Of a DNA stretch of 44,082 bases, positions 7,185-27,197 are shown piece after piece. The notes under the pieces were generated by a model, which made no database searches, was not told the origin of the DNA, and saw only the letters and a program-made list of their open reading frames with translations. Made by a program: the position numbers and the translations under genes. Positions within the stretch are counted from its first letter, which is position 1. The number at the start of each line of letters is the position of its first letter. This DNA is from an uncultured Clostridia bacterium (lineage in GTDB: Bacteria; Bacillota; Clostridia; Christensenellales; Borkfalkiaceae), in the NCBI GenBank assembly GCA_944341075.1, contig CALVLV010000016.1:1-44082 (forward strand), in the 5' to 3' direction.

Positions 7185-7196
7185 CGGGAGGTGTAT

Positions 7197-7583: not shown

Positions 7584-7584
7584 A

Positions 7585-7614: not shown

Positions 7615-7645
7615 AATTTTCCTGTATCCATTTTTTTTTATAGTG

Positions 7646-7675
7646 TTGTAAAAGCGGTGCCTTAAGTGGTATAAT
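7646..7675 (+). promoter_or_regulatory. Promoter of the CoA-disulfide reductase operon
   Basis: TTGTAA (7646-7651), 18-base spacer, perfect TATAAT (7670-7675) with TGG before it. Confidence 0.75.
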
Positions 7676-7706
7676 ATTCCAGTAAATAAAAGCATAAGAG
7701 GAAATT

Positions 7707-7769
7707 ATGTCGCTATTTAACGGCATACAGGACTATCGTGGCGAAACTGTAAAGGGAGGACAGGCATGA
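7707..7769 (+). CDS. 20-codon upstream ORF coupled to the reductase
   Basis: It has an ATG at 7707 with AAGAGG ideally placed, 20 codons beginning MSLFNGIQDYRG, and a TGA that overlaps the reductase start as ATGA. The reductase has its own site AAGGGAGGA inside this frame. The first residues resemble the start of small clostridial rhodanese proteins, so it may be a remnant or a leader. Function is unknown. Confidence 0.45.
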   Translation: MSLFNGIQDYRGETVKGGQA

Positions 7770-9448: not shown

Positions 9449-9502
9449 TTTTATAGCCGCATGGCTGCATAATTGCGCGGCTTGCGGCAGAAACTAAAAG
9501 TG

Positions 9503-9532
9503 AGGGGCGGTGTATTCTGTTACGCCGCCCCT
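9503..9532. other. Hairpin between reductase and YihY genes
   Basis: A 12-bp stem (9503-9514 with 9521-9532, one wobble) around TTCTGT, followed by ATATATAC rather than a T-run. It may be a weak terminator or a leader structure for the next gene. Confidence 0.4.
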
Positions 9533-9561
9533 ATATATACGCCGCCCTTACAGTATACATA

Positions 9562-10371: not shown

Positions 10372-10384
10372 CTTTTTTTAAAAG

Positions 10385-10412
10385 AAGCCGCGCGGCATAT
10401 GCCGCGCGGCTT
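10385..10412. terminator. Bidirectional palindromic terminator
   Basis: A 28-base perfect palindrome (AAGCCGCGCGGC arms) between convergent yihY-type and degV genes. A T-run precedes it at 10374-10379, so the minus-strand reading is A-rich afterwards and the plus-strand tail is TTAAAT. Confidence 0.7.
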
Positions 10413-10445
10413 AAATAATAAAATTCAGATTTTCTGTAATATTTG

Positions 10446-11315
10446 TCAGTGGCAGGTCTCATAGCAGGCTATTGCAAGCGCGCCCGGGCCAATATGGCAG
10501 GAAACGCTCAGCGAAAGGGGGTCTACAAATTCGACGGGCATACCGAATGCTTCTTCGGCTTCCTGTTTGAATATCTGCGCCTGCTCGTCCGTGTCGGTAT
10601 AGGCCAGAGAGATCTTCATTTTTCCGTCTGCTATTTGCTTTGCAAACCTGTTTTTAAAGTCCTCTTTAACGGCGTCTATCATTATCGTCTTTGCCTTTTT
10701 AAAGCTCATCGGCTTTGCAAACTGGTCAAGCTTGGCGCCCTGTATCTGCAATACGGGCTTTATTTTAAGCAGGGTGCCTATCATGGCTACGGCGGGGGTC
10801 AGCCTGCCGCCCTTTTTAAGGTACTTCAGCGTGTTTACCATAATATAAATGCTTGAATGCATCGAAGTTTCGGTAAGCCACTCTGCAATCTCTTTTGCCG
10901 ATTTTCCCTGTTTTGCAAGTTCTATCGCGTCGTAAACCGAGCTTTTCTGCGTTATCGAAATTCGCTTGTTGTCAACAACGTACACTTTGCCTGCAAACTC
11001 GCTCTCGGCAAGGTGGGTAAGCGAATGGCAGGTCTCCGAAAGTCCGCTGCTCATGGGTATGCATACAATTTCGTCGTACTCTTTAAGTATCTTTTTCCAC
11101 AACTCGCCCACGTCGAAGGGGTTGGGCTGCGAGGTGGAAACATTGGTCGAATCGTCCTTCAGTTTTTCATAGAATTGTTCCTGCGTAAGGCTTATATCTT
11201 CAAGGAACTGTTCGCCGTTTATAAGAACGGGCATGGGTATGGTAAAGATGCCTAATTTTTCAGAAAGCGCCTGCGTGATACCGCTGTTGCTGTCGGTTAC
11301 TATGGCTGTTTTCAT
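10446..11315 (-). CDS. DegV/FakB-family fatty-acid-binding protein
   Basis: 289 residues. DegV proteins bind a single fatty acid; FakB members present it to a kinase for lipid synthesis. Seen are TDSNSGI near the N-terminus, STSQPNP, IPMSSGLSETCHS (fatty-acid carboxylate-binding Ser), VVDNKRIS and the C-terminal SCHIGPGALAIAC, all typical of the family. The start has AGGAGAA about 6 bases upstream on the minus strand. Its own promoter (TTGACT-17-TATAAT) lies at 11349-11377. Confidence 0.92.
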   Translation of the reverse strand: MKTAIVTDSNSGITQALSEKLGIFTIPMPVLINGEQFLEDISLTQEQFYEKLKDDSTNVSTSQPNPFDVGELWKKILKEYDEIVCIPMSSGLSETCHSLTHLAESEFAGKVYVVDNKRISITQKSSVYDAIELAKQGKSAKEIAEWLTETSMHSSIYIMVNTLKYLKKGGRLTPAVAMIGTLLKIKPVLQIQGAKLDQFAKPMSFKKAKTIMIDAVKEDFKNRFAKQIADGKMKISLAYTDTDEQAQIFKQEAEEAFGMPVEFVDPLSLSVSCHIGPGALAIACYETCH

Positions 11316-11348
11316 GGTTTATTCTCCTGTAAATAAAAACTTAAATTT

Positions 11349-11377
11349 ATTATACTTATTTTGTGTATTCAAGTCAA
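11349..11377 (-). promoter_or_regulatory. Promoter of degV-family gene
   Basis: On the minus strand: TTGACT (11377-11372), 17-base spacer, TATAAT (11354-11349). Confidence 0.8.
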
Positions 11378-11390
11378 ATAAATATAATAA

Positions 11391-11420
11391 AAAGCGGCAA
11401 ACGCGCGGTTGCCGCCTTTA
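11391..11420 (-). terminator. Terminator of the ilvA-ridA operon
   Basis: On the minus strand a GCGGCAA/TTGCCGC stem is followed by TTTTTATTATA. Confidence 0.75.
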
Positions 11421-11479
11421 AATTAAGTACTTTTGTATGCTTATGTTTCGGATAGCCGAGCGCTTAATGGCTTGAACCT

Positions 11480-11851
11480 TTAACACTCGGCTATACACTC
11501 AATCTCTACCAGCGCGCCCTTGGGTATGTCTTTTACCGCCACACAGCTGCGCGCGGGGCGCGAGGTAAAATACCTTTCATAAACGGAGTTGAATTCGCCA
11601 AAGTCTGCAATGTCCGCAAGAAAGCACACCGTTTTTATAACTTTTTCCATGCCGGAGCCTGCCGCCTGTAAAAGCGCGGCAACGTTTTTGCATACCTGTT
11701 CGGTCTGCCCTGCAATGTCTGCGGCCTCTATTGCGCCGCTTGCGGGGTTTACGGGTATCTGCCCCGAGGCGAAAACCAGTCCGCCGCTTATTTTTGCCTG
11801 CGAATACGGCCCGATGGCCGCGGGCGCGTTCTTTGTTTCAACCGTTTTCAT
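11480..11851 (-). CDS. ridA: RidA-family enamine/imine deaminase
   Basis: 123 residues, the usual RidA length. RidA hydrolyses the reactive 2-aminoacrylate and 2-iminobutanoate released by threonine/serine dehydratase. Motifs are AIGPYSQA, FASGQIPVNP and the catalytic Arg in RSCVAVKDIPKGALVEIECIA. It lies 18 bases after the dehydratase gene on the same strand, so enzyme and clean-up partner are made together. GGGAGAAATTGC precedes its ATG. Confidence 0.95.
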   Translation of the reverse strand: MKTVETKNAPAAIGPYSQAKISGGLVFASGQIPVNPASGAIEAADIAGQTEQVCKNVAALLQAAGSGMEKVIKTVCFLADIADFGEFNSVYERYFTSRPARSCVAVKDIPKGALVEIECIAEC

Positions 11852-11869
11852 GCAATTTCTCCCTTAAAA

Positions 11870-13081
11870 TTATTTCTGGTCAAGCAGCTTGAAGCCGCTT
11901 TCTTTAAGTTTGTTTTCTATCTCTCTTATGTGCGCAAAGTCGCGCGTTTCAATTGTAAGGCGAAGGTAGCACCCGTTTACGTCCGAACCCTCGTTCGAGC
12001 GCTCGTGCAGCACTCCTATAACGTTGCCGCCGCAGCCGGCTATTATTGCCGAAACGGCCACAAGCTGACCGGGCTTATCCATAAGCTCTACGGTCAGGGT
12101 GGCGGTGCGCCCGCCCATCAAAAGACCGCGGTTTATCACGCGCGAAAGTATGGTAACGTCTATATTGCCGCCAGAAATAAGGCAGACCACCTTTTTACCC
12201 TTTACGTTTGGTATCTTTCCGTACATGACCGCCGCCAGCGCAACCGCGCCTGCACCCTCGGCTATCATCTTCTGCTTTTCTATAAGTGCAAGTATGGCGG
12301 CGCATACCTGGTCGTCCGTCACCGAAACTACGCCGTCGGCATACTTTCCGCATATTTCAAAGGTATGTACGCCCGGCTCCTTTACGGCGATGCCGTCCGC
12401 AATTGTGGAGACAGAGGGCAGCATCTCTATCTTTTTATGTTCAAGCGACTGTATCATGCTGGGCGCGCCCGCCGACTGAACGCCGTATACCTTTATTTTG
12501 GGGTTGAGCGATTTTACGGCATACGCCACGCCCGAAAGCAGTCCGCCGCCGCCCACGGGTACGACTATAACGTCTACGTCTTTAAGCTGGTTTATTATTT
12601 CAAGGCCTATGGTTGCCTGGCCGGCTATAACGTCCTCGTCGTCGAACGGGTGAATAAAGGTGTAGCCCTTTTCTTCGCGCAGCTTTTCCGAATAGTTGTG
12701 CGCATCGTCGTATACGCCGGGCACAAGCACTACTTCTGCGCCGTAGCTCTTTGTCGCCTCTACTTTAGAAATGGGCGCCCCGTCCGGCATGCATATAACA
12801 GCCTTTATGCCGAACTTTTTCGAAGCCAGCGCCACGCCCTGTGCGTGGTTGCCGGCAGAGCATGCCACAACGCCGTGGCTCTTTTCTTCGTCGGTCAGCT
12901 GTGAAATTTTGTAATACGCGCCCCTCACCTTGAACGAACCGGTTATCTGCAGGTTCTCTGTTTTAAGGTACACTTCGCAGCCGCTTTGGGCAGAAAGGGT
13001 GGAGGAGTATATTATATCGGTCTGTCTTACCACGTCTTTCAAAACGTAGTTTGCATGGTACACTTTGTCTAAACTTAGCAT
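11870..13081 (-). CDS. ilvA: Threonine dehydratase with ACT-type domain
   Basis: 403 residues. PLP enzyme that turns threonine into 2-oxobutanoate and ammonia. K51 in SFKVRGAYY holds the PLP; SAGNHAQGVA, the Gly-rich loop VGGGGLLSG and a SGGNID motif complete the fold. Residues about 325-400 are an ACT-like domain (TVELMDKPGQL). The length and single ACT domain match the TdcB/short IlvA class, so it may be catabolic rather than committed to isoleucine. GGAAGG precedes the start by about 8 bases. Confidence 0.93.
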   Translation of the reverse strand: MLSLDKVYHANYVLKDVVRQTDIIYSSTLSAQSGCEVYLKTENLQITGSFKVRGAYYKISQLTDEEKSHGVVACSAGNHAQGVALASKKFGIKAVICMPDGAPISKVEATKSYGAEVVLVPGVYDDAHNYSEKLREEKGYTFIHPFDDEDVIAGQATIGLEIINQLKDVDVIVVPVGGGGLLSGVAYAVKSLNPKIKVYGVQSAGAPSMIQSLEHKKIEMLPSVSTIADGIAVKEPGVHTFEICGKYADGVVSVTDDQVCAAILALIEKQKMIAEGAGAVALAAVMYGKIPNVKGKKVVCLISGGNIDVTILSRVINRGLLMGGRTATLTVELMDKPGQLVAVSAIIAGCGGNVIGVLHERSNEGSDVNGCYLRLTIETRDFAHIREIENKLKESGFKLLDQK

Positions 13082-13113
13082 AGGCGACCTTCCGGATGGT
13101 AAAATTTCTTATA

Positions 13114-13142
13114 ATTATATTCCTAATTATAAAGAATGTCAA
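13114..13142 (-). promoter_or_regulatory. Consensus promoter of ilvA-ridA
   Basis: On the minus strand: TTGACA (13142-13137), 17-base spacer, TATAAT (13119-13114). This is an exact consensus. The leader is only about 26 bases, which leaves no room for a T-box. Confidence 0.9.
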
Positions 13143-13665
13143 CATAATTCTTGCCGCCGTTATTGTTGTGCTGGTGTAGGTAAAGGCAGTTTGCTGCCGG
13201 AATTTGAGCCTGCAGACATGCACGAAAGTGGGCAGGGCGATTACAGATATCTTAAGAAGTATATCAGTTTCTGCTATCCTGAAAAAATTTTTTGCTGAGC
13301 GCAAAAAAATTTTGTTGAATTTAGCGGCCTTCGGCTTTCATGGTGCAGGCTGCTTTTGTAAAAGCGCGGTAAATGTATTTGTTTAAATTGTAATGGCCGG
13401 AGTAGTATATAAGAATTCTAATAAATTCAAACATAAATATTTTACAATTACCCCTGGTATATGGCAGAATTAACCGCACAGAATTTGAAATAAAATTATA
13501 TTGCGGTATGCATAATTATTCATGCGGAAATGCCGGAAAAGAGTATGTATTTTTTTGTTGTCATATGCTGATTCATATTTTAACAAATGAAATTTTTGTT
13601 CAATATTTATAATATTTTTGTTTCGTTCTGTCAGTATGCCGATAAAAAATGTTGCAAAAAAAGTG
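13143..13665. other. AT-rich intergenic stretch, no gene seen
   Basis: About 520 bases between the divergent ilvA and SipW-locus promoters. Short open frames are present but have no ribosome site and no recognisable protein. It is noticeably AT-richer than the flanks. Confidence 0.5.
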
Positions 13666-13693
13666 TTGACAAATGAAAAATATCTGTTAAAAT
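13666..13693 (+). promoter_or_regulatory. Promoter of the SipW locus
   Basis: TTGACA (13666-13671), 16-base spacer, TAAAAT (13688-13693) with TGT before it. The next clear gene starts at 14134, so the leader is about 430 bases. Confidence 0.75.
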
Positions 13694-13699
13694 AAAATT

Positions 13700-14133
13700 A
13701 CTTATCTGATTGCGGCTTTGAAAGTATAATACAGCCTGATTTTTGTGGTAACTTGTCCGATAAGTATATTTTTGTTTAAAATTATTGGAAATAATATGCA
13801 AAAGGCAGGCTGCAGTGATCGTATGTTCTGCTGCTTGCTATGAAAGGCGCTTTATTGCGGGTTGCAGGCTTTTCTGTGTTGTCACTGCTGCATATTATAG
13901 CCGTTGCGCATTATACATTATAGTAAAAATCTTTGAAAGAGGGGCGCCCCTCTTTCTGTCGTGTCCTGTAGTACACGACAACAAACACCTTTCCGCAAAA
14001 GTTTCCGTATTTCGCACTTTTGAGTGCCATAGAATAGTTATGTAAAAATATTGTTGTTATTGTACGTGCAGGTATATGCATACCTGTGCGCGCAAGCATA
14101 TAAAAATTTATTTTGGAGGTTTAACAAAACACT
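13700..14133 (+). ncRNA. Long structured 5' leader of the SipW locus
   Basis: The leader contains two adjacent perfect hairpins: a 22-base palindrome at 13935-13956 and an 8-bp stem at 13957-13964/13973-13980. A third 7-bp stem lies at 14069-14075/14080-14086. GGAGG at 14115-14119 is 14 bases from the ATG, unusually far. No known riboswitch is recognised. A regulatory role is inferred from length and structure. Confidence 0.4.
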
Positions 14134-15015
14134 ATGACTAATCAGAATAATGAAAAGTCAAAGAACGGCAAGCGCCTTGCGCTCATTTTAATAGCGCTGT
14201 TGCTTATCGTTGCAGTGGCCTTCGGCGCCTACACGTATTCTAAGTACGTAACAAGCCAAAAGGCGTCTGGTACGGCTACGGTTGCCGATTGGGGGTATTC
14301 TGTATCTATTACACAGACGTCAAACAAAGGAAATGTATTCTTCAAGTACTACGATAAGACAGAAGATAGTGTTGAAGGCGCTACTTCGTCGGGTGAAAAT
14401 ACTATCATTGCTAAAACAGATGCTGATGGCGTAGTTGCGCCCGGTGTTGAAGGCAGCATTGACTTCTCTCTGACAGGTAATGCTGAAGTAAGTGCGCTTG
14501 TTAAAGTTACACTTGAAAAAACAGCAGAAGTTTCTGTAGATGTAACTGTAAATGATACTGTGTATGTATTCTATCCTGTACAGTGGACTCTTACGGATAA
14601 TAAAAAAACATCACCCAATGATGCGGTTACAGGCTCTCTCGATGTTGTTATTGCTGCTCTTAAGGCGCAGCTTAACGATATTGCTGAAGATGGACAAATT
14701 ATTAAAGCAGGCGACGCGACCACTTTACCTGAAATCAACTACACTCTTAGTTGGAAATGGGCTTTCACTAAAACTGACAATATGACTCTTCCGCTTAAGG
14801 AAGGTGAAGGTCAAGGTTTAAGCCTTACCGCGGATGATTTTGATCAGCTTGATACTTTAGTTGGTCAGAAAGCTGCCGGTCATACGTTTAATGAGCCTTA
14901 TACAATTAAGCTTTCAGAAAGCAGGACGGCAACAGTGGCTATAAATACACTTACTGCGTTTAACGTTGGCTTTAACCTTGAGGTATCTGCAACTCAGGTA
15001 CAGGAAAATTCCTAA
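14134..15015 (+). CDS. TasA/camelysin-like secreted protein, SipW substrate candidate
   Basis: 293 residues. Residues 13-35 are a hydrophobic signal (LALILIALLLIVAVAFGAYT) followed by YSKYVTSQKASGTATVADWGYSV, the pattern of SipW-cognate signal peptides. The rest is a beta-rich, Thr/Val-rich domain with no cysteine and no anchor. TasA-type proteins are cut by SipW and assemble into matrix fibres. A sipW-like gene lies 1 kb downstream. Codons ending in T or A are used more than in neighbours, suggesting high expression or a foreign origin. A hairpin follows the gene, as if to raise its level relative to the downstream genes. Fibre formation is inferred. Confidence 0.7.
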   Translation: MTNQNNEKSKNGKRLALILIALLLIVAVAFGAYTYSKYVTSQKASGTATVADWGYSVSITQTSNKGNVFFKYYDKTEDSVEGATSSGENTIIAKTDADGVVAPGVEGSIDFSLTGNAEVSALVKVTLEKTAEVSVDVTVNDTVYVFYPVQWTLTDNKKTSPNDAVTGSLDVVIAALKAQLNDIAEDGQIIKAGDATTLPEINYTLSWKWAFTKTDNMTLPLKEGEGQGLSLTADDFDQLDTLVGQKAAGHTFNEPYTIKLSESRTATVAINTLTAFNVGFNLEVSATQVQENS

Positions 15016-15078
15016 GCTGTAATAAAACATAATACTTAAACATTAACTTTACATAAACTCTCCAAAAAGATAAAAGCG

Positions 15079-15116
15079 GCTTGCCGCGCAAGTTAAAAAG
15101 TTCTTGCGCGGCAGGC
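15079..15116 (+). terminator. Intra-operon hairpin after the TasA-like gene
   Basis: A 14-bp stem with one wobble (15079-15092 with 15103-15116), with a T-rich stretch (TATTTTTA) ten bases on. It is probably a partial terminator or a processing site. Confidence 0.6.
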
Positions 15117-15161
15117 ATGCCGTATTTTTATGCAGGCATACAGGCGCAGTGGAGGGGGAGG

Positions 15162-15251
15162 GTGTTTTTTAAAAAACTTTTTTCGGGGATCCACTTTGAA
15201 AACAAACGGCGTACTTACACTATCCCCGTTCAAGGGGAAGGTAAAACTTAA
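15162..15251 (+). CDS. 29-codon frame behind a strong ribosome site; possible displaced start
   Basis: GTG at 15162 follows GGAGGGGGAGG with ideal spacing, but this frame closes at 15251. It runs through T6-A6-C-T6. Loss of one base in that tract would join it to the long frame below, giving MFFKNFFRGSTLKTNG. It may be a real small peptide, a phase-variable start or an assembly slip. Confidence 0.35.
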   Translation: MFFKKLFSGIHFENKRRTYTIPVQGEGKT

Positions 15252-16032
15252 AAGAACGTTAAACCGCATTATCGACCCTTCGGGGGCAGTGATAGGCGGT
15301 ATTTCCGCATACAATATTTACGATCTGAACGGCGCCAAAATCGCCGGGCTTTCGCGTGTGGAAAAAACGCCTTCGGGGGATGTGCGCCGCTACGAAGGAT
15401 ACAGATCGTTTGTTGTAAAAGACGGGCTTTTAATGCTTGAAAACGGCGGCGTTCTGGGCAGGGTAGTTGCCAAAAAGGAACGCAGCGCCTTTGTGCCCGT
15501 TGCGGTAATTTTAACGGCATTGATGGCGGCCATACTTGTTATAATGGCTGTGCTCGGCTTTCCCGAGCCTATACCCGTTTCGGGGGAAGAGCGCCCCGTG
15601 CTCACCGTAAAAACCGACGGGGAACAGTGGGGTGCCAACCAGGATCTTTCTGTATTCACGGGCAAACTTTACCCGGGCAAAAGTGGCGATTATGCTTTTG
15701 AAATAGAAAATCCCACCGAATTTGAACTTGAATATACCCTTACGCTTACAGACGAAAACGACTGGGGCGGAAGGTCGCCGCTGGAATACCGCCTGAGAAT
15801 GAACAATGTTTATATAGGCGAAACTAACGGCTGGATCGCCATGGCGGATTCGCGCAACACAATCGCCTTCGACGATATCCATTTTACGCCCGATTCTTCG
15901 CATATCATAACCATTGAATGGCGCTGGCCGTTTGAAAGCGGCAACGACGACGCCGACACGCAGGCGGGCCAGGCAAGCGGCATTTACTTTTTGAATGTAG
16001 ACATAACTGCCGCCATTGTGGGGCAGCTTTGA
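15196..16032 (+). CDS. Membrane-anchored protein of the SipW operon, unknown function
   Basis: 278 residues from TTG 15196 (GGGGA 6 bases upstream); the open frame extends back to ATG 15130 but that ATG has no ribosome site and its first codons translate the purine-rich SD-like run. Residues 1-95 are probably cytoplasmic, with a repeated NG/DLNGAKIAG-type pattern. One membrane segment follows (FVPVAVILTALMAAILVIMA, about 97-116). The outer domain of about 155 residues has ENPTEFELEYTLTL and IEWRWPFE, similar in style to the TasA-like neighbour. It ends on the A of the sipW start codon. It could be a fibre anchor or assembly factor; this is inference. Confidence 0.65.
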   Translation: MKTNGVLTLSPFKGKVKLKRTLNRIIDPSGAVIGGISAYNIYDLNGAKIAGLSRVEKTPSGDVRRYEGYRSFVVKDGLLMLENGGVLGRVVAKKERSAFVPVAVILTALMAAILVIMAVLGFPEPIPVSGEERPVLTVKTDGEQWGANQDLSVFTGKLYPGKSGDYAFEIENPTEFELEYTLTLTDENDWGGRSPLEYRLRMNNVYIGETNGWIAMADSRNTIAFDDIHFTPDSSHIITIEWRWPFESGNDDADTQAGQASGIYFLNVDITAAIVGQL

Positions 16033-16634
16033 TGAACGGCGTGGAGCTGAACGAACCGCTTTCGCCGCCAAAGCAAGTAAGCAGGGCGTGGCAATGGGTA
16101 AAGCGCGTGGCGGTAGGCATAGTTTTTGCCGTACTGCTGTTTTTGCTTTATATTTTTACCGTGCTCGCGGCCGACAGGCTTATATTAAAAAGCAGTGTGC
16201 CGCAGGTGTTCGGCTTTGCGCCGCTCACCGTGCTCACAGGCAGCATGGAGCCTGAAATTTACCCGGGCGACATGGTGATAATTCACAGGCAGGCAGAATA
16301 CAATGTCGGCGACGTGGTAACTTACCTCACCGCCGACGGAACCATAGGCACGGGCAGCGGAAACGTGACCGTGACAAGCGGCACCGTTTCGGTGACGCAT
16401 AAAATAGTAGATAAATATGTAGACGGCGGGGTGACATACTTTATCACCCGCGGCATAAACAACAACACCGATGACCCCAACCCCGTGGCGCAGTCGCAGG
16501 TGGTGGGCAAGGTGGTGCTGGTTCTTGAAGGGTGGGGGATCTTTTTTGAATGGCTTAAAACGCCTTCGGGGATCATATTAATAATTCTGTTTGCGTGCAT
16601 AATCATTGCCGCCGTATACGTAATAAAGGAATAG
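16032..16634 (+). CDS. sipW: SipW-type signal peptidase I
   Basis: 200 residues. Membrane protease with one N-terminal membrane segment (about 26-47) and one near the C-terminus (about 180-197). The catalytic Ser is S71 in TGSMEPEIYPGD. The general base is His (H123 in VSVTHKIVD) rather than Lys, which marks the ER/SipW class. YFITRGINNNTDDPNPV is the conserved box after it. In Bacillus SipW cleaves TasA and related proteins. Start ATG 16032 shares one base with the previous stop, showing translational coupling. Confidence 0.88.
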   Translation: MNGVELNEPLSPPKQVSRAWQWVKRVAVGIVFAVLLFLLYIFTVLAADRLILKSSVPQVFGFAPLTVLTGSMEPEIYPGDMVIIHRQAEYNVGDVVTYLTADGTIGTGSGNVTVTSGTVSVTHKIVDKYVDGGVTYFITRGINNNTDDPNPVAQSQVVGKVVLVLEGWGIFFEWLKTPSGIILIILFACIIIAAVYVIKE

Positions 16635-16665
16635 GTTTCCGCGGCTGCATTGGCGGGCACACAGC

Positions 16666-16710
16666 GAGATTTCTCCGTGCGTTCCCTTCGGTCACTTACT
16701 CGAAATGACA
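16666..16710 (-). repeat. Dispersed palindromic repeat, copy A1
   Basis: It reads GAGATTTCTCCGTGCG ... CGAAATGACA, the reverse of the TCATTTCGA...GAGAAATCT repeat. It is one of several copies in this gap. Confidence 0.7.
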
Positions 16711-16760
16711 ATAGACGGGGCATTGCTGATTTGGCTTAAAATAGCTGTTTTTTCAATAAG

Positions 16761-16911
16761 TCATTTCGACCGAGCGGTAGCGAGTGGAGAAATCTATTCC
16801 TCAATCGTGCCTCCTTTACTAAGGGAGGTGCCGCGACCGCAGGTCGCGGCGGTGGGATTTTTTGAGATTTCTCCGTGCGTTCGCCTTTCGGCTTACTTAG
16901 TCGAAATGACA
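16761..16911. mobile_element. 151-bp MITE/REP-like composite element
   Basis: Two inverted copies of TCATTTCGAC...GAGAAATCT (16761-16795 and 16864-16911) flank a second repeat type (about 16807-16863). That inner repeat holds a CCTCC/GGGAGG hairpin and a perfect 9-bp GCCGCGACC/GGTCGCGGC hairpin at 16830-16850. Such elements are common, non-coding and dispersed in many bacterial genomes. Further copies lie at 19253-19333. It fills most of the 462-base gap between sipW and the next gene. Confidence 0.65.
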
Positions 16912-17096
16912 TTGCAGAATAAATAACTTTAATTTGCCTACGTTCGCCGACCCTGCCGCATAGCTTTGCGGTGCAGAAAATAAAAAAAATTTAAATTTTG
17001 CTTACACTTTTTCTGCATTGCAGGCGGCAGGGCGGTGTTTGCGTTTGCGGCCATTTTATACTCAATAAAAAATACTAAAAAAGGAGGCGCGCGGCT

Positions 17097-17933
17097 ATGC
17101 CCGGGTTTTTAAAGGGTAAAAAGTTGATAATCGGCGCGGTGGCATTGATACTTGCCGCCATAGCTGCCGTTGTCGCCGTTTCCTTTACCTACGCCGCTTA
17201 CCGTAAGTCGCTTTTAAGCGAGGGCGGCGCCACCGTTGCGGGAATGGTGGCTGATTACGTTCGCGGAAACGCATACCGTTTCCCGGGCGAACAAATAGAG
17301 TACGACGATAGTTCTTCCGATGGCAGCATAGTCATTTCAGACCTTTCCCCCGGCGACATTCTCGACTACAGCTTTTTTGTAAACGGCTACAGGGAAAGCG
17401 TCGACGGCACCACCTCTTTCAACGAGGTGCTTTTGCGCGTCACCTGCGAGTTTTCGTTTACATACGCATACCCTACAGAGTCCGAAGACGGCAAGACGCA
17501 AATAATGCAGGTTCCGCTCAGCGCATTGCCGTATGTAGATGAGGAGGGTACGCAAAGAGGGGCAGACCTGCAGTTTTATCCCGTGGCAAATGAAAACGGA
17601 GAGATAAACGCTGAAATAATGCCGGCAATTGAGGCAAAAGAAGGTGATCTGCCTGTCTATTATGACCCTTCAAACAATACTGATTGGCAGGTCAGTCAAT
17701 ATCAGGATAACGGCGAACTGACACAGAAATTCGGTTTTTACATACCCCCTGTAAGTTCTGCAGATGCCGAAGGTGCCTCGCAGGGCATGACTTTCCGCGT
17801 GCTGTTGCCTGAAAACAATATAGGCGACACTTCCGGCGGGGCAGAGGATTATTCAGATCAGTTCCGCCTTACGGTAAGCTTAGACATAGTGGTGGAACAG
17901 GTGTTAAGCACCCAGCCGGGGCAGTCGCAGTAA
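17097..17933 (+). CDS. Secreted protein with SipW-cognate-like signal
   Basis: 278 residues. Hydrophobic residues 10-33 (IIGAVALILAAIAAVVAVSF) are followed by TYAAYRKSLLSEGGATVAGMVADYV, matching the style of the TasA-like gene at 14134. A beta-rich, acidic domain follows with SPGDILDYSFFVNGY. There is a single Cys and no sortase motif. AAGGAGG lies 9 bases before the ATG. It is a likely second SipW substrate, possibly a minor fibre subunit. I do not recognise a named family. Confidence 0.65.
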   Translation: MPGFLKGKKLIIGAVALILAAIAAVVAVSFTYAAYRKSLLSEGGATVAGMVADYVRGNAYRFPGEQIEYDDSSSDGSIVISDLSPGDILDYSFFVNGYRESVDGTTSFNEVLLRVTCEFSFTYAYPTESEDGKTQIMQVPLSALPYVDEEGTQRGADLQFYPVANENGEINAEIMPAIEAKEGDLPVYYDPSNNTDWQVSQYQDNGELTQKFGFYIPPVSSADAEGASQGMTFRVLLPENNIGDTSGGAEDYSDQFRLTVSLDIVVEQVLSTQPGQSQ

Positions 17934-18082
17934 AGTCCGTGCTACTTTCGGCCGCAGAAAAAACACGGCAACCCAAATGCCGCGGCTAAACGTAAAACAG
18001 CAAACAATCTGTGCGCTTGCGCACTTAAATATATGCGCCGCAGGGCGCTTGCGGCATTTGCCGCACATTCACAGGAAGGCGT

Positions 18083-19204
18083 ATGAAAAGAAAGAGCAAA
18101 GTTTTAAGCTTAATACTTTTGCTTGTTCTGGCGTTGCTTACGGCGATTGCCGCGGGTACGTCAGTTTCGCGCTACGTCTTCAGGGAGCAGGATCAGATAA
18201 CCGGCAGCTTTACCGACCTGTATTTTTCGCACGACGGGCAGGGCCGCGTGGTGCTTATGGAGCCGGAAAGTTCGTCTGAAAACAGCAATTATGTCGGCTA
18301 TTTCACTTTTACCGCCAACAACTACGAGGGCGACAACGTGACCCCTCGCAATATAGAATACAGGCTCCGCCTGCCTACACAAACCGAGCTCAGTAATGGC
18401 TACATAATGGACGCGTGGGGCACGGAACAGTCGCTTATCAATAGCGAAGAAGATAGAGTAACTGTAAGCAATACGCAAAAATATGAGTTAGCTTATTACG
18501 ATGACGGGGTAAATTCTTCCACAATTGCAGCAGTACCCGACGGCGAAAATTTTCTGCCCAACAGCCACAGCGACATGTTCACGCTCACGCGCAATGCGGA
18601 CGGCGAGCGGCTCGAGGATGAAACTATTTACCTTATCGCAGAAATAACATACCCCTATCAGGAGCTGCACCTCTTCACCGTAAACACGTCTACCAACCTG
18701 CTCACGGTAAGCGCCACCCCCGTAAGGGATCCCGAAACACATTTTTCTTACACACAGTATTGGGTAAACGTTCAAACGGCGCGCAGCTTTGAAAACGCTG
18801 TGGAGGGCGTATATACCGATTCCCCCGTAAAGGTAGTGCTCACATGGGAAGCTGATGCGCCCGTCATCTTCGATAGCGGCAGGTTCGCCGCCGCAACAGA
18901 GGGCAACATGGTGAATAATGTGCCTTACGTCGACGGCAATCAGTGGAGCGAATATCGTTGGCATGCGGATAGCACAAGCGAAAATGGCCGTTATACAAAC
19001 ACCGTAACGCTGTATCTGCCGCAGGGGTCAGATGCAAGGCTGTACTTCTATGTATACGGCCAGAACTCATTCTCGCTTACCGCGCAGGCATGGTTCCAGA
19101 CGGAAACGGGAGGCACATACGGCGCTGAACAATATTACAATATCGCGGGTGCAGACGCTAAAACAGGAATTGTAATACAGGACGGCGCGGCGGCAGGCAA
19201 CTGA
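18083..19204 (+). CDS. Secreted protein of the SipW locus, third substrate candidate
   Basis: 373 residues. N-terminal hydrophobic stretch at 7-26 (VLSLILLLVLALLTAIAAGT), then SVSRYVFREQDQITGSFTDLYFSHDG. This parallels the YSKY...ATVADW and AAYRK...ATVAGM segments of its neighbours. The rest is beta-rich with many Thr, Asn and Tyr and no anchor. GGAAGG lies 4 bases before the ATG. The 149-base gap upstream holds a GTGCGC/GCGCAC hairpin. Function unknown; the shared N-terminus argues for the same export route. Confidence 0.65.
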   Translation: MKRKSKVLSLILLLVLALLTAIAAGTSVSRYVFREQDQITGSFTDLYFSHDGQGRVVLMEPESSSENSNYVGYFTFTANNYEGDNVTPRNIEYRLRLPTQTELSNGYIMDAWGTEQSLINSEEDRVTVSNTQKYELAYYDDGVNSSTIAAVPDGENFLPNSHSDMFTLTRNADGERLEDETIYLIAEITYPYQELHLFTVNTSTNLLTVSATPVRDPETHFSYTQYWVNVQTARSFENAVEGVYTDSPVKVVLTWEADAPVIFDSGRFAAATEGNMVNNVPYVDGNQWSEYRWHADSTSENGRYTNTVTLYLPQGSDARLYFYVYGQNSFSLTAQAWFQTETGGTYGAEQYYNIAGADAKTGIVIQDGAAAGN

Positions 19205-19252
19205 AGCGCTGCGGCGGGCAACAGAAATCCCGCACGGGCAAGCCTGTTATCG

Positions 19253-19333
19253 TCATTTCGACCAAGCCCGCCAAGGGTGTGCATTATTGTCATTTCGACC
19301 AAGCCCGCCAAGGGCGGGCGCGCGGAGAAATCT
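19253..19333 (+). repeat. Tandem copies of the TCATTTCGACC repeat
   Basis: TCATTTCGACCAAGCCCGCC and the following AAGGG occur twice, 37 bases apart (about 19253 and 19290), and the second runs into GGAGAAATCTC. It is the same family as the copies at 16666-16911. Confidence 0.7.
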
Positions 19334-19437
19334 CGCAAAAGCTCCGAACGGTGCGGGCAAATGACGGCCGGAAATATTATTCCGCTTATATATTTTTTTG
19401 ACACATAACATTAAATTTGTTTACAGGAGGAAACAGC

Positions 19438-22400
19438 ATGAAGGCACGGATAAAACATCGGGCGCTGCGCTATGTGGCAATAGCCCTTATGGCCGTGATA
19501 TGCTTTGTAACGGTGCTATATTCGGCATCGTTCATTTCCCCTGTCACGCTTTCGGCAGACGACGCAATGGTCGCCAATATATCCGCGCAGGGCGTAAACG
19601 TATACATCTCGGGCGACGGGGTCACCAGGGACGAAAACGGAAACTATGTTGTTCCAAAAAACATTCAGGCCGAAATAACGGTAGTCAACGATGCCGCCAT
19701 AAGCAGCGGCATTTCGGTGACAACTTCAGCCGGAACGATAACTGCCGCTTCGCCTAACCATGTGACTGTTGATACAGGCAATGGCGAGCTGAATATTGAT
19801 GTAACTACTTCCGGTCTTGCAACGGCGCGCGGCACCAGCCTTTCCACGGCATATCAGATCTCCGATTATAACGACCTGATGGCGCTTTCAAAGATACTTG
19901 CCTCAATGGATAGCGATATAACCGACGGCTCAAACGACACAAACGATACAAGGGCCGCTTTTGCAGGTTACCTTAACGAATTCGGGCTTGCCGACGAAAG
20001 TTGGTTTGACGATGATGGCAAATTTGTTTCTGCCGATACAGGTGCAGTTCAGGAAGCCGTTTCTTCTGCCCGCGATTTGCTCAGCACCGCCTATTTTGTG
20101 CTTGCCGACGACGTAATGCTCAACTCCAGCAACGATAAACCCGCCGATTATTCCAGCGGGTATTTCGGCATAGGCTCCCGCCGCGGAGTTCCCTTTCAGG
20201 GCGTTTTCGACTTCAATGGCCACGCCGTAACTTTAAACCTTTCGCTCACCGAAACAAGCAATGAAAACTTTTCGGCGGCAGTTTATAAGGACGGGCAGAG
20301 CGGCGATGACCGCATTTTAAGCGTGGGCTTTTTTAACTATATCTACGGTAACGGCGACGATGCCTGCGCTATAATCGGCGGCGACGTGCGCGGCACCATA
20401 GCCGTCAGCGCCGACCTTGAAAATGCAGATGACCAAGATTATCTGCTGTTTGCGGGCGGGCTTGCCGGTACGATCGGCGATAAGGTTGTGCTCGACGGCG
20501 CAAGTTCGGCAACGTCTGTTTCTATTCTCACCGGCACCGGCGGCAATAACACAGAGGCGGTCAGCGTATATGCGGGCGGCCTGTTCGGCCTTTCGGGCGC
20601 CGATATAGATTATTGGTCTGACGTTTCTTATACGGGCAATTATTCAGAAATAAGCATCACTTCAGATAACGGCGGCGATGATGACAGAAATATTGCAGGT
20701 TCGCTTGCAGGTGTTATACAAAATGCGTACATAAACGGTTTCCATGCAGATCTTCGCGGCGCAAACATACTTGCCGACTCAACCGACAGGGGCAACGCCA
20801 TAACTGGCGGCCTTGCGGGCATAATATACAGCGGTACGCCGCAGTTTACCGAAATCTCTGTAAGTAAGGCGGTCAGCATACGCGGAATTAATATTTCCGC
20901 TTCGGGCAGCACGCTTTCTTCAATAGTTACCTCGCGCGTGTCGGGTTCAGGTTTTGCTGAACTTGATGCGGGAGATATATTTGATAGAAATTTTGCTCAG
21001 AATGCCGATATTGCTATTTCAGGCGGCCTTATGGGCCTTGCCTATACCGACGGTGCAAGCGCTTCTACCTTGAACATTTCCGACGTCAGTTTCCTTGAGT
21101 CGGGCGCAAACGGCGGTTTTACCGTGCATGCGGCCACATCTGATTCTTCAAGTCTTGGTATACCTTTTGCCGGCGGACTTGTTGGGTATGTTCAGGCAGA
21201 CGGGCAGTTTGTCAATTTCTCTCCCGTTGCGGGTGACCAATCAGAATCGTTTACCTTATTCGGGTGTGATGTAACGGTAAACTCCGTGCAAAACGGTGCA
21301 GGCCCCGCCTATGCGGGCGGTGTGTTCGGCTATAACGCCTTTACCTTGCCTTCAGGGTATACCTTTAACCTAACAGACGAAAAAAGTTCTATAGATGTCA
21401 TTGCCGAACAGACCGAAACTGCCGGCAACGAAATGGTTGCCGCAGGCACAAAGCCCACTGCGCACGGCGTGTTTGCGGGCTTTTATACCTCTGTGCTGCA
21501 AACCGGCTATGAAATAAGTGACTTTACTTTCAATGTAAACGACGGCCATCTTGAAGCCCGCCGCCTTGCCGGGTCAGAGGCAACGGGCGATATTTCCGCG
21601 GGTGCTGTAGCCGGCTGGGCAGAGGGAACCTCGAACGGTGATAGTACTATAAGCGGCCTTAATGTAACGCTCACAGATTGCTCTGTGAACGCGCTTGGTT
21701 ATTCGTTCGATTCTTTCCTCCCGAGTGGAGGTGATAATGATACCACTACCGAACACAACAACGTTTATGTCGGCGGCGTATTCGGTTATATTGCCAACTA
21801 CGGCGTTTATAATAATAATTCTGATACAGTAGGGCTCTCCAATATCTCGCTTGAATTCCGCCATGTCAATGGCGGCGAACAGTATACCGTGCGCGGCATT
21901 CAGAATGCGCAGGCTGCAAATAAGGACTACAAAGGCGAAGGTTACGTTGGCGGCATGTTCGGCATGATGAGCAGCTGCAATGCCCAAAATCTTACCTTAG
22001 ACGGCAATTCGAGCGGCGATACGCTCATATACTTCAACAGCACTCACGACCCCAACACCGCAAGCGTTGGCGGCCTTATAGGTGCTACAAGGGTAGCGGC
22101 AAGTGGTTATTATAGGGGTTACAGGCTCAGTTATGCACAGGTAAAAAATGTGCACGTTGCCGGCAGAGCATATTACAGTGGATCTACAAATGGTGGCGAG
22201 TACGAGCTCAATGTAGGTGGCGCAGTCGGCGTATGGGGAAGCTATTACGGAGATACCAGTACAGTGGCGCAGAATATTTTTGTGCAGAATTGTGCTATAG
22301 AATCTATTGGTGAGCAGAATATGTTTACCTATGCAGGCGGCGTGTTTGGCGGCGCATGGTATAGGTGTGACGTTGATATAACTAATTGCTATAGCATAGA

Positions 22401-25400
22401 CAATTCCGTGCTTGCCTCTTCGGCTTCAAGCCGCGCTTATGCGGCTGGGCTGGCTGGCCTTATTCAGTCGCAACAAGACGCTGGAGTAACGGTTTCGCAG
22501 TGCGGCGTAATAGATACTACCATAGAAGCTATTACATATAACGCAAACTCTTTTGTATATGCTGCAGGTTTGGTTTCTAACATGAAATCTAACTGCACTG
22601 TTTCTCATAGTTTTTCTAATGCAACAATCAGTGCACAGTGCGGTGAAAATAATAGTAATCCTGGAAATATCCGTATAGCAGGCATAGCTATTCAGGATGA
22701 GTTATCCTCTGGTAATCAAAAATATATAGAAGATAATTTCTTTATAGCTGCCAACGTACAAAATAATCAGACTGATATTGGTAATGTAAATATTTATCGT
22801 ATCTTTAATCTAAATGATTTTCAACATACTGATGGTTGGTGGAATCCGACTATAATTTCTCATATTAACAACAACTATGCTGTGGCGCTGACGGGTACGT
22901 CGTCTGCCAACGACAACAGAACTATGACGACTGAACATACTTTCAGTAGTTATAACAGTAGTGGTATCTCCGTCTATAACTTTGGTTCGGCAGGCGGGCA
23001 CGATACAGAAATAAATATAGTGGGCACAAGTGTAAGTTTGAACAATAACACCGTCAGCCCCATCAGCGACAGAAGCGGCACAAGCTATGTGCAGCTGCAT
23101 GTTAAAATACCTGCGTATGACGATAGCAGTAATAATAAAGACTACCTTCTTTGCGCATATCCCGTATATGTTGGCGAAGCCACAAAATCAAGCGGGATAA
23201 CTATAACTACGCCCGATTTTACGAATACTTCAGGCCAAAATCAGTTTGTTAATTCCGGTAATGCCAAAAATTATTATACAGAACAGGGTTCTACTTATGT
23301 AGACTTTACCACCGTTTCAGAGGGGTTCACTCTTAATGGCGAGAATGGTGAAAATTTTGCGGGTAGTATTTTTACGCTTATTGGCGGCGATGATTCTGCG
23401 ATACGCGATGATAACGGCAAAACAATGCATTTGTATTATACCGGCGGAGTAAAAATAGATAAAGACGATGAAGGAAATATAATTAATGTAACCCGTGCAA
23501 CTACATTTGCCATAAAAGACAAAGCTACTCTTATTATTGCCGCTGCGCGAAATATAGATGATGATCCTATAGATTTTGTATTGTTGAAGCAAAATGAAAA
23601 TGGTTTCATTGAGTATATTAAACCCGATAATGGTAGTTGGGTATTAAACAGAACAAGCGCATATAAGTTCAACGCGGATAACTCCGGCGGTTTATTTGAA
23701 TTTAAGGAAATTAACGGCGTTGAATACATTGAGGACGATGATCTGCAACTTGTAACATATACTTTTAACGATCTAGAAGAGGGAACGTATTACTTTGGTT
23801 CTGGAAGCAATGGTTACAGAATATTTGCTTTGGATATTCAGTATGCAGATCAGAACAACCACTACAGGGAGAGCAATACATATTTCCAGATATACACGGG
23901 CGACAGCGAAAGCGTTCAGAATGTTATTATAAACAATCTGAATGTGTATATGCCCAATGTGTATCTTGTTAAAAATCCCGCAACAGGCCCTGAGTTGCTC
24001 CTCGGGTATAAAGACGATGATGTAGTTGAAGAGGGTGAAGAGAAAAATATTCGAACCATTCAGGAAAGGCAAAAAGCCATGGAGGCAATTATCGGGGCAA
24101 GGGGTTCAACTTCGCTTACCTTGCCTGGGGTAAAGGACTACTTTAACGTAACTTCTTCGGCAGACGGCATGCAGCTGGATATTTCCCCCGTGCTCGGCAA
24201 CACAGACGGCGCGGCGCTCGTGCTTGAATACGAGGCGGAGGACGGCGAATATTTCTACGTTGTTATAGAGGCCGTTCCCAACGCCATAACCAAAATAGAT
24301 GTACGGCCTGCGGAAGATACTCCGCCCAGGGCGATCACCGAAAACGGCCACTATGTATACTCAAACGGCGATACTGTGCGCCTTGAAGCTGTTGTAAACT
24401 ACCGCTTTGGCTTTAACCGCTATATAGTAGACGTGCAGTTTGCCGAGGGCGACAATGGCAATGTTAATTGGCAAGACGATTACAATATAGAGGTAAACGG
24501 TACTGTTGACATAAATGACTGCGACCCCGGAGATTTGATCGAGGTAGTTTGTACGCCTGTAGTTCCCGGCCTTGCAATATCAAATACTATGTCGGCAAGC
24601 ATAATATTAGAGGTTGCAAACTCTATAACCGTTACGCCTGAAAATATGAGCGGTGCAAGCTATTCGCCCGTAAACGACAACAATGCCGTTGTCGGGCACG
24701 AGTTCTCGTTTACGCTCACTCCCAACCCCGGCTACGGCCTAAATCCCACGCTCAACCTTGGTTTTTATGGTAATAATTCTTTAGGCAATATAGGCAATAT
24801 AAGTAATATCGGCTTCCCTGAAGAACGTACTGATAAGGAAAATGGTACAATTCAGTGCTCACTGAATGATACAAATTATACTATTAATTATACTTTCAAC
24901 GCGCAGACGGGCGTATATACCATAACCCTGCCGGCTGAAATGTTCAATATCAGAGGCCTTTCAGAGGTGCGCATAAGCGCAAGCTTTGATAAGGTTTATT
25001 CCGTTATGTTCGACCTCGGCGACTGGGTAGAATACAGCCAGGATAGCGGCGGCGTTGGATCGCGCTTCTTTATCTACCAGGTAAAGCAGGGTGAACAAAT
25101 AAATACCGCACTCAGGGAAGAAATTTTCGACTACTTTGATACGGCGTATGGCGATGCATTTACTTCTATGATAGAAGGCCGCGCGGGCTTTACATTCAAG
25201 GGCTTCTACGCAACAGACAGCGCGTCGTCGCTCGCATCTTACGGCACCAGCTTTGTTGATTACTGCGCGCAGGGCAATGATACCATTCGCGGCTCGCTCA
25301 ACTATTATGCGCGCTGGAACTATACCGCAAAGGTGTTCGCTCCTCAGGGCGTATCTGTGCGTAGTGCGCTCGGTAGCCAGCTTATCGAAACAGTAGTTTC

Positions 25401-26646
25401 TGATGGTAGCGGCAGTAACCTTATTCCCATAGACACAGCCCACGGCTTCAGCTTTATCATTCAGGGCAACTATATAGGTATTCCCCGCGTAGAATTGTTC
25501 ACCGCCGTGCAGTCGGAGGGTGGCACTGAACTTGAGCCGCTTACCTTTATGCAGAGCGGTAACGTGTATACCGTGACGGGCGAAATCAAGGGTACTGTAT
25601 ACATATACATTTATGCCGACAATATCTCTTCCGCGGTGGGTGAAACAGATGTTTCATCTGCATTCGGGGAAGCGATCGACCTCAACGAAGACGGCATCTT
25701 CACCGTCCGCTATGCGGTAAATCATGGTGATGAGAGTGGTGCTCTCGGCGGCGGCGCAACATTTACGTTCAGCCAGACCCTTCCCGTCGGCACCGATTTA
25801 AGGCTGTTTTATCAGGTGAACGGCGTGCCCGTATCTGTCGGCAGAATACCTGACGCGGGAGGCGAAACTAGTGTTAAAGCCTCTGATTTTGACGCTTTGA
25901 CAGGCGCCCCCGACAATGGCGGCAACATGTCGTTTGCTTATACGGGTACAGTTGTAAGCGAAGTTTATTACCTTGTAATAACCCTGCCCAACAATGAAGC
26001 AAACTTTGGCGCAGCAAATGCGACAGGCGGTTATGTTCCGTTCACGGTGACGGTAAATGAATATAGTGCAGCGCTTGTAGAAACAGACTACATCACACAC
26101 GCCGTATCTGTTTCTGGAACAACGGGACAGTCGCAAAGCGCTCTGCAGAACGTGGAACAGCGTGCCGAAAGTGAAATTTCTACTACCGCCAACCTTTACG
26201 GGGCGGTTATACGCAATATTGAGTATAGAGGCAACACCGTTACCTACAGCGTTACGGGCGGCAATAACGTAGTTACAGACGTGCGCCACGCCAACAGCTA
26301 TTATGTGTTAAAGGTCATTGGCGCAGATATCTCTAATGCGAACGGGAATACTACGGTTACTACAGACGTGGCTACATATGTCATTATTCCCGCCGGCAGT
26401 AACTCTGCACAAATTACGTTAAGCGGTAGCGGCATTGTGCAGCTGCTTGAAGTTACCAACATGCAGTACCCCGCCGCGGGCACTGTGATTGCAACACAAT
26501 ATTTAAATTTGAAAAGTGCGGCGGCCGATCCAGTGATCCGTGGTCGGTCGCGTACACAGGTTTACCGCTCTGCCGAAAGCGGCATACGGAGGTTTTTATG
26601 GCAGGTATTTTACTCGCCCCCGTCTGGAGTTTGGGGTGGAAGATAG
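19438..26646 (+). CDS. Giant GLUG-repeat surface protein (2402 residues)
   Basis: Residues about 8-40 form a signal peptide ending near TLSADDA. Residues about 335-1050 carry some 15 GLUG-like repeats (AGGLAG, AGGLFGL, GGLAGII, GGLMGLA, AGGLVGYV, AGGVFGY, VGGMFGMM, VGGLIGA, VGGAVGVW and so on), predicted to form a beta-helix as in bacterial adhesins. Residues about 1200-1500 include an EGTYYFGSGSNGYRI segment like carbohydrate-binding domains. Residues about 1850-1965 resemble an InlB-type/Flg_new repeat (VMFDLGDW ... FTFKGFYA ... YYARWN). There is no LPXTG motif; the last 40 residues are Arg-rich and overlap the next gene by 49 bases. AGGAGG lies 7 bases before the ATG. Adhesion or matrix role is inferred from repeats. 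Confidence 0.8.
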   Translation: MKARIKHRALRYVAIALMAVICFVTVLYSASFISPVTLSADDAMVANISAQGVNVYISGDGVTRDENGNYVVPKNIQAEITVVNDAAISSGISVTTSAGTITAASPNHVTVDTGNGELNIDVTTSGLATARGTSLSTAYQISDYNDLMALSKILASMDSDITDGSNDTNDTRAAFAGYLNEFGLADESWFDDDGKFVSADTGAVQEAVSSARDLLSTAYFVLADDVMLNSSNDKPADYSSGYFGIGSRRGVPFQGVFDFNGHAVTLNLSLTETSNENFSAAVYKDGQSGDDRILSVGFFNYIYGNGDDACAIIGGDVRGTIAVSADLENADDQDYLLFAGGLAGTIGDKVVLDGASSATSVSILTGTGGNNTEAVSVYAGGLFGLSGADIDYWSDVSYTGNYSEISITSDNGGDDDRNIAGSLAGVIQNAYINGFHADLRGANILADSTDRGNAITGGLAGIIYSGTPQFTEISVSKAVSIRGINISASGSTLSSIVTSRVSGSGFAELDAGDIFDRNFAQNADIAISGGLMGLAYTDGASASTLNISDVSFLESGANGGFTVHAATSDSSSLGIPFAGGLVGYVQADGQFVNFSPVAGDQSESFTLFGCDVTVNSVQNGAGPAYAGGVFGYNAFTLPSGYTFNLTDEKSSIDVIAEQTETAGNEMVAAGTKPTAHGVFAGFYTSVLQTGYEISDFTFNVNDGHLEARRLAGSEATGDISAGAVAGWAEGTSNGDSTISGLNVTLTDCSVNALGYSFDSFLPSGGDNDTTTEHNNVYVGGVFGYIANYGVYNNNSDTVGLSNISLEFRHVNGGEQYTVRGIQNAQAANKDYKGEGYVGGMFGMMSSCNAQNLTLDGNSSGDTLIYFNSTHDPNTASVGGLIGATRVAASGYYRGYRLSYAQVKNVHVAGRAYYSGSTNGGEYELNVGGAVGVWGSYYGDTSTVAQNIFVQNCAIESIGEQNMFTYAGGVFGGAWYRCDVDITNCYSIDNSVLASSASSRAYAAGLAGLIQSQQDAGVTVSQCGVIDTTIEAITYNANSFVYAAGLVSNMKSNCTVSHSFSNATISAQCGENNSNPGNIRIAGIAIQDELSSGNQKYIEDNFFIAANVQNNQTDIGNVNIYRIFNLNDFQHTDGWWNPTIISHINNNYAVALTGTSSANDNRTMTTEHTFSSYNSSGISVYNFGSAGGHDTEINIVGTSVSLNNNTVSPISDRSGTSYVQLHVKIPAYDDSSNNKDYLLCAYPVYVGEATKSSGITITTPDFTNTSGQNQFVNSGNAKNYYTEQGSTYVDFTTVSEGFTLNGENGENFAGSIFTLIGGDDSAIRDDNGKTMHLYYTGGVKIDKDDEGNIINVTRATTFAIKDKATLIIAAARNIDDDPIDFVLLKQNENGFIEYIKPDNGSWVLNRTSAYKFNADNSGGLFEFKEINGVEYIEDDDLQLVTYTFNDLEEGTYYFGSGSNGYRIFALDIQYADQNNHYRESNTYFQIYTGDSESVQNVIINNLNVYMPNVYLVKNPATGPELLLGYKDDDVVEEGEEKNIRTIQERQKAMEAIIGARGSTSLTLPGVKDYFNVTSSADGMQLDISPVLGNTDGAALVLEYEAEDGEYFYVVIEAVPNAITKIDVRPAEDTPPRAITENGHYVYSNGDTVRLEAVVNYRFGFNRYIVDVQFAEGDNGNVNWQDDYNIEVNGTVDINDCDPGDLIEVVCTPVVPGLAISNTMSASIILEVANSITVTPENMSGASYSPVNDNNAVVGHEFSFTLTPNPGYGLNPTLNLGFYGNNSLGNIGNISNIGFPEERTDKENGTIQCSLNDTNYTINYTFNAQTGVYTITLPAEMFNIRGLSEVRISASFDKVYSVMFDLGDWVEYSQDSGGVGSRFFIYQVKQGEQINTALREEIFDYFDTAYGDAFTSMIEGRAGFTFKGFYATDSASSLASYGTSFVDYCAQGNDTIRGSLNYYARWNYTAKVFAPQGVSVRSALGSQLIETVVSDGSGSNLIPIDTAHGFSFIIQGNYIGIPRVELFTAVQSEGGTELEPLTFMQSGNVYTVTGEIKGTVYIYIYADNISSAVGETDVSSAFGEAIDLNEDGIFTVRYAVNHGDESGALGGGATFTFSQTLPVGTDLRLFYQVNGVPVSVGRIPDAGGETSVKASDFDALTGAPDNGGNMSFAYTGTVVSEVYYLVITLPNNEANFGAANATGGYVPFTVTVNEYSAALVETDYITHAVSVSGTTGQSQSALQNVEQRAESEISTTANLYGAVIRNIEYRGNTVTYSVTGGNNVVTDVRHANSYYVLKVIGADISNANGNTTVTTDVATYVIIPAGSNSAQITLSGSGIVQLLEVTNMQYPAAGTVIATQYLNLKSAAADPVIRGRSRTQVYRSAESGIRRFLWQVFYSPPSGVWGGR

Positions 26647-27197
26647 CGCTTATCGTGCTCATTTCAATAGCCATAATCGTGTGTGTTATACTTATAACGT
26701 GCGCCGTGCTTTCCTTTCGCCGCGCGCGCAAAAAAATCCCAGAAGATGATTTTCTCGTTCCCGACGACGGCGGATTCAATTCGATAGTCAGGGTAGACGG
26801 CCTTGGAATGGTTCCCATTTCAAAAGACGGTGCAAATTTGCAGCCGCAACAGTCCGCTCAATATGCACCTGCATCTTCTGTGTTGTCCGAACAGCCGGCC
26901 GTGCAGGTGGAACAGCCGATAGTGGTGGATCCCGCAACGGGCGCCGTTATTTCGGCGCCATCGCAAGAGGCAGCGGCGGCATATGCCCATGCGCTTGAAA
27001 ACGGCAATATAGCCATTCCCGGGTTTAATGTGATAACCGGCCCCGACGGAAACATTTCAGTAGTAAACGTTCCCTCCGTAGCTCCCGCTACAGAAACGGC
27101 AATTCAGACGCAGAGCAGCAACCTTCGCGGCGGCTTTTACGACCCCGCAGATTTTGCCGGCGAAAGTAAGGGAAATAAGGGGAAGGGCCGCAGGTGA
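26598..27197 (+). CDS. Single-pass membrane protein, unknown function
   Basis: 199 residues. One membrane segment at about 15-40 (IALIVLISIAIIVCVILITC), then RRARKK, so the long Pro/Gln/Ala-rich tail is probably cytoplasmic. The tail has DPATGAVISAPSQEAAAAY and GPDGNISVVNVPS, low-complexity pieces. It starts 49 bases inside the giant gene with GGAGG 6 bases upstream, so translation is coupled. A membrane partner for the giant protein is plausible. No family is recognised. Confidence 0.65.
   Translation: MAGILLAPVWSLGWKIALIVLISIAIIVCVILITCAVLSFRRARKKIPEDDFLVPDDGGFNSIVRVDGLGMVPISKDGANLQPQQSAQYAPASSVLSEQPAVQVEQPIVVDPATGAVISAPSQEAAAAYAHALENGNIAIPGFNVITGPDGNISVVNVPSVAPATETAIQTQSSNLRGGFYDPADFAGESKGNKGKGRR

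Follow-up and report, generated by a model that had tools for sequence, protein, structure and literature searches.

A putative SipW-dependent surface-fibre cassette with TasA-type proteins and a giant partner protein in a family of uncultured Clostridia

Organisation of the cassette

The window, that is, the whole stretch of 44,082 nucleotides that was analysed, is a single contig of a 1.87-Mb genome (94.7% complete) from an uncultured Clostridia bacterium of the family Borkfalkiaceae. Open reading frames and frame checks place a cassette of seven genes (A to G), all on the plus strand, between 14134 and 27197, and each of them occupies the position at which an earlier note on this DNA had put it. 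The features are as follows.

Gene A, 14134..15015, plus strand: small SipW-type secreted protein of 293 aa, proposed major fibre subunit; YSKY follows the hydrophobic N-terminus, homologues lie upstream of B, and its profile matches that of B.
Hairpin, 15074..15129, plus strand: stem with a T-rich tail between A and B, a possible partial terminator; judged by folding energy against shuffles and by a stem kept in locus L078.
Gene B, 15196..16032, plus strand: membrane protein of 278 aa (from a TTG at 15196) with its N-terminal part in the cytoplasm, a single membrane segment and a probable TasA-type ectodomain (TasA/CalY profile comparison); proposed fibre base.
Gene C, 16032..16634, plus strand: SipW/ER-type signal peptidase of 200 aa with Ser71 and His123; assigned by TIGR02228, the catalytic residues and the position directly after B.
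Gene D, 17097..17933, plus strand: SipW-type secreted protein of 278 aa with a TasA-type domain (mature part against TasA/CalY), proposed minor subunit; its N-terminus, FTYAAYR, departs from the motif.
Gene E, 18083..19204, plus strand: SipW-type secreted protein of 373 aa belonging to type II and proposed as a minor or linking subunit; motif VSRY, no TasA match.
Gene F, 19438..26646, plus strand: giant secreted repeat protein of 2402 aa, proposed adhesin-like partner; 11 GGLxG-type motifs at residues 339-971.
Gene G, 26598..27197, plus strand: single-pass membrane protein of 199 aa overlapping the end of F (open reading frame and frames).

The A-type gene is present in a single copy in this genome. 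The start proposed for B lies at about the point where strong similarity between the window and the related locus L078 resumes. Gene G proved to be the single-pass membrane protein described before.

Gene F had been described as encoding a GLUG-repeat protein of 2402 residues. This length is borne out, and the 11 GGLxG-type motifs, with starts at residues 339-966, compare with a mean of 0.28 and a maximum of 2 in 200 shuffles. A GLUG repeat in the Pfam sense was not recovered: F gave no Pfam hit with E of 1 or less and matched no NCBIfam model, and therefore the name is used here as a description at the level of the motif.

A short REP-like repeat with the core TGTCATTTCGACCNNGC is found in the gap between C and D (16759-16911) and again between E and F (19251-19304). 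With up to 2 mismatches allowed, the window has four copies (0.08 in shuffles), and the genome holds 72 copies at up to 1 mismatch against none for the pattern read backwards.

Gene order in related genomes

Gene B was found in 22 of 151 genomes of the family, the present one included, and in one of 290 other genomes in a draw from the class that itself contained a few family members; it is the most diagnostic gene of the cassette. The one genome of this draw outside the family with B-like matches (G433, contig C17) carries three of them (L115-L117) within about 5 kb. We compared 22 loci, namely those of 20 B-positive family genomes, the window and L078. One B-positive family genome (G013, E 4.6e-4) was left out, and L079, which is the same contig as L054, was counted once. 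Profile matches of this survey to its own members are matches by construction.

The earlier note had proposed looking for the same gene order in relatives, and this order is strongly kept. C directly follows B in all 22 loci, A precedes B in 19, and D lies downstream in 20, with a giant gene closing the cassette in 20; in the three loci lacking an A call (L059, L064, L072) B is near a contig end.

Two types of cassette can be told apart by their last genes. In type I (16 loci) the cassette ends in a giant gene, E', whose product has a SipW-type N-terminus. Its open frame spans 1054-1469 residues in 13 of these loci, while in L060 it is split by stops, as is D, and in L064 and L068 it is cut by contig ends. 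The start of the E' proteins consists of the signal motif and a conserved segment, which by eye resembles the beginning of a beta-helix; these proteins have no detectable relation to F. Type II comprises the window, L078, L054 and L055 and ends in the short E and the giant F, the latter running off the contig in L078 and L054. Ten GGLxG motifs were counted in F of L055 and 12 in F of L078, against 0 or 1 in each of 14 further large proteins, of type I or other. The profiles used found neither D nor a giant in L057 and L072. L057 (oriented 4916-18017) is a variant in which A, B and SipW are followed by large proteins of 1089 and 1638 aa and by a 393-aa protein with a FAKY-type N-terminus.

Genes E and F are both present in the same three of the 151 family genomes, and no further match to F was obtained among them. 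The window and L078 have flanking genes in common; at E 1e-10, L054 and L055 share none with the window, with L078 or with each other. Gene G was found in its own genome only, the 150 other genomes of the family giving no match; its N-terminal part is weakly similar (12 of 37 residues, E 8e-4) to that of the gene following F in L055. The latter gene (14978-16738 of L055) encodes a membrane protein whose repeat tail is long and acidic and whose C-terminus matches PF00828 (ribosomal L15/L18e/L27A; 43.8 bits against a cut-off of 21.5), which is unusual for a membrane protein.

The hairpin between A and B has a folding energy of -30.8 kcal/mol, against a lowest value of -11.8 in 20 shuffles, and its stem is kept in L078 with changed arms. 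Across the A-B gaps of 18 loci the best hairpin beats all of 20 mononucleotide shuffles in 10 and none was found in 5, by a test that was written after a first terminator detector had given 3 of 18. Such a hairpin would fit A being a major-subunit gene expressed above the rest of the operon. Ahead of A (13666-14134) there is also a strong promoter-like site (11 of 12) at 440 nt from the gene, and the long leader holds an inverted repeat (13935-13956). Site and leader are not visibly kept in L078, and no Rfam family was found in them at gathering score.

Peptidase, signals and homology to TasA/CalY

The replacement of the Ser-Lys pair by Ser-His is the defining mark of the SipW class of signal peptidases. 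The protein encoded by C scores 71.8 bits with TIGR02228 (SipW/ER-type signal peptidase), over the curated cut-off of 51.85. When 34 SipW proteins of the 22 loci were aligned, the column of Ser71 held Ser in 32 and gaps in the other two, and that of His123 held His in all 34, which agrees with the Ser-His peptidase of SipW class claimed from the sequence. With the Bacillus SipW model NF046067 it scores 60.1 bits, below the cut-off of 190. C is the sole match of SipW kind found in its genome. In 12 of the 22 loci, all of type I, a second and more distant SipW gene is placed upstream of A (for example at 8125-8940 of L058), which suggests two peptidases with divided substrates.

Three of the proteins (A, D and E) had been described as sharing a hydrophobic N-terminus followed by a Y/S-rich, ATVA-D-like segment. 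Across the 22 loci, the A, D and E proteins carry the motif [AGS][RK][YF] behind their hydrophobic N-terminal segment in 57 of 59 cases, as against 7 of 55 for the remaining proteins with a hydrophobic N-terminus; the motif had been loosened after a first pass in which it was found in 19/19 A, 16/20 D, 7/20 E and 5/55 controls. By class the loosened form is present in 19/19 A, 18/20 D and 20/20 E or E' proteins, and the seven control proteins that carry it include two SipW proteins and, in L057, one that is D-like. The two exceptions are the D proteins of the window and of L078, which both read AAY. The common signal of the earlier description thus holds for the set, less so for D of the window, and the ATVA-D segment stands out clearly in A and D and is weak in E. 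F of the window has no SipW-type motif. Among the B proteins the motif was found in only 2 of 20, which fits B remaining in the membrane.

The NCBI model of the SipW-cognate signal, TIGR04088, gave no match over its curated cut-off in this genome, while positive controls were matched in B. subtilis and H. volcanii. The signal is therefore at most a family-specific form of the SipW-cognate one; a search for that signal, as suggested earlier, fails with the curated model and succeeds plainly for the family-specific form.

A search with the curated TasA/CalY model, also suggested in the earlier note, was negative: PF12389 has no match in this genome, and 34 of 249 genomes of the phylum do match. 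We then compared profiles of the mature parts, with signals and membrane segments removed, against a set of 22 TasA/CalY proteins obtained from 22 of 30 PF12389-matched loci. The alignments held 20 of 22 B proteins and 17 of 19 A proteins, the trimmed mature A set consisting of 16. As 25 comparisons were made, the P values are those of single comparisons. Mature B matched the TasA/CalY set at 92.3% (P 5.6e-7, 97 columns) and mature D at 84.0% (P 7.6e-6, 117 columns), the reversed profiles giving 2.4% and 0.2%, respectively. When columns were shuffled, 7 of 100 shuffles scored about 131, above the observed value, through a two-column end artefact, and the other 93 reached at most 20.3 for B (observed 47.7) and 14.3 for D (observed 41.6).

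Gene A may be related to this family, though less directly. Its product matched B at 95.7% with full profiles and at 78.1% with mature ones, and the mature A profile matched the type I D' proteins at 90.0%, whereas against TasA/CalY itself it gave 4.4%; the link of A to TasA/CalY passes only through B and D'. In the mature comparison neither E (0.3%) nor the type I D' proteins (0.7%) matched TasA/CalY. The TapA model TIGR04087 matched 2 of 17 A proteins (best E 0.0011), and A of the window was not among the matches listed.

The membrane segment of the B proteins starts anywhere from residue 30 to residue 536 in the open frames, so that the cytoplasmic part is very variable in length, while the ectodomain measures 140-155 residues in 21 of the 22. 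Since B and D match TasA/CalY and A matches B, we believe B to be probably a membrane-anchored TasA-type subunit, judging by sequence profiles. The beta part of the membrane-anchored beta protein of the earlier note is now better described as a probable TasA-type domain. The predicted structures, which the note had proposed as a check for TasA-like jelly-roll folds, are of low confidence and too weak to bring out such a fold. The B ectodomain was modelled as a beta-sandwich (pLDDT 68, pTM 0.65) and A as mostly beta with two helices (pLDDT 66, pTM 0.67), and PDB searches with these low-confidence models gave no clear relative and listed no TasA.

Proposed function and relation to known systems

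The earlier note had suggested an extracellular fibre or surface-layer system. A surface system centred on SipW is supported by gene order, signal and the profile homology of B and D; fibre formation is a step that we infer. On balance we lean towards reading the cassette as a divergent SipW-dependent surface-fibre operon of the TasA superfamily with a giant adhesin-like partner. This reading is based on the gene order, the signal motif, the type of peptidase, and the profile matches that link B and D with TasA/CalY and A with B.

In such an operon C would cleave A, D and E at their hydrophobic signals, close to [AGS][RK][YF], and the released A would polymerise into a fibre from the membrane-held B. 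B may keep its membrane segment and, given the kinship of its ectodomain with A and D, act as the anchored first subunit, with D and E as putative minor or assembly subunits. F, or E' in type I, would be exported together with the set and be displayed on the fibre, or held by it, as an adhesin-like repeat protein, and G is a possible membrane partner of F. More tentatively, the cassette could represent a class of its own among TasA-superfamily fibres, belonging to one family of uncultured Clostridia, with a membrane-retained TasA-type subunit as its built-in base and a giant partner of its own, swapped between the unrelated E' and F on a conserved core.

The same gene order and signal are also compatible with a coat without fibres, in which A, D, E and F would be separately secreted matrix or S-layer-like proteins that have one peptidase in common, and B a membrane receptor holding the coat. 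Such a coat would suit the large and repetitive F and the lack of a detectable relation of E to TasA. However, known fibre formers belong to the TasA/CalY family, which B and D match, and A in turn matches B; we regard the coat as unlikely.

The constant ectodomain and the variable cytoplasmic part of B, together with the 18 of 20 B proteins that have no SipW motif, could instead indicate a membrane sensor rather than a fibre base, its ectodomain binding A-type subunits and its cytoplasmic part signalling the state of the fibre or envelope. This seems to us improbable, as no known signalling domain was found in B and a cytoplasmic part is compatible with anchoring too.

It is very improbable that F and G form a separate adhesin unit adjoining the SipW cassette by chance, in spite of the missing signal motif of F and of the 233-nt gap with genome-wide repeats between E and F, because F follows E in 4/4 type II loci, with L054 and L055 at sites without common flanks, and no other F match was found in the 151 family genomes. 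This argument covers F; G, found in its own genome only, may still be a separate unit.

If the surface-fibre reading of the cassette is true, SipW-TasA-type fibres extend to an uncultured Clostridia family, where in the present genome they were missed by the curated models tried. It would also suggest a way of holding a fibre to the cell, through a relative of the fibre subunits that stays uncleaved and anchored in the membrane. Moreover, a giant partner exchanged on a constant core would offer a natural test of the role of the giant protein.

Among GLUG-repeat secreted proteins, F is comparable in its spaced GGLxG motifs and differs in reaching no Pfam family at E 1. C keeps the Ser-His pair and passes TIGR02228 like other SipW-class peptidases, but falls well under the Bacillus SipW model NF046067. 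Processing of SipW type or subunits resembling TasA are also known from the BsaA-SipW fibre genes of Clostridium perfringens and from archaeal bundling pili, which are leads for further comparison.

A close parallel is provided by the Bacillus operon, whose layout is tapA-sipW-tasA, and by CalY (camelysin). As in these systems, the SipW-type peptidase of the cassette sits beside its presumed substrates, profile comparison connects the mature parts of B and D with PF12389 proteins, and a hydrophobic N-terminus is followed by an aromatic motif. Unlike in these systems, no protein of the genome matches PF12389 or TIGR04088 directly, and the cassette has a membrane-anchored protein, B, that is probably of TasA type, up to two SipW genes and a giant secreted protein in last place.
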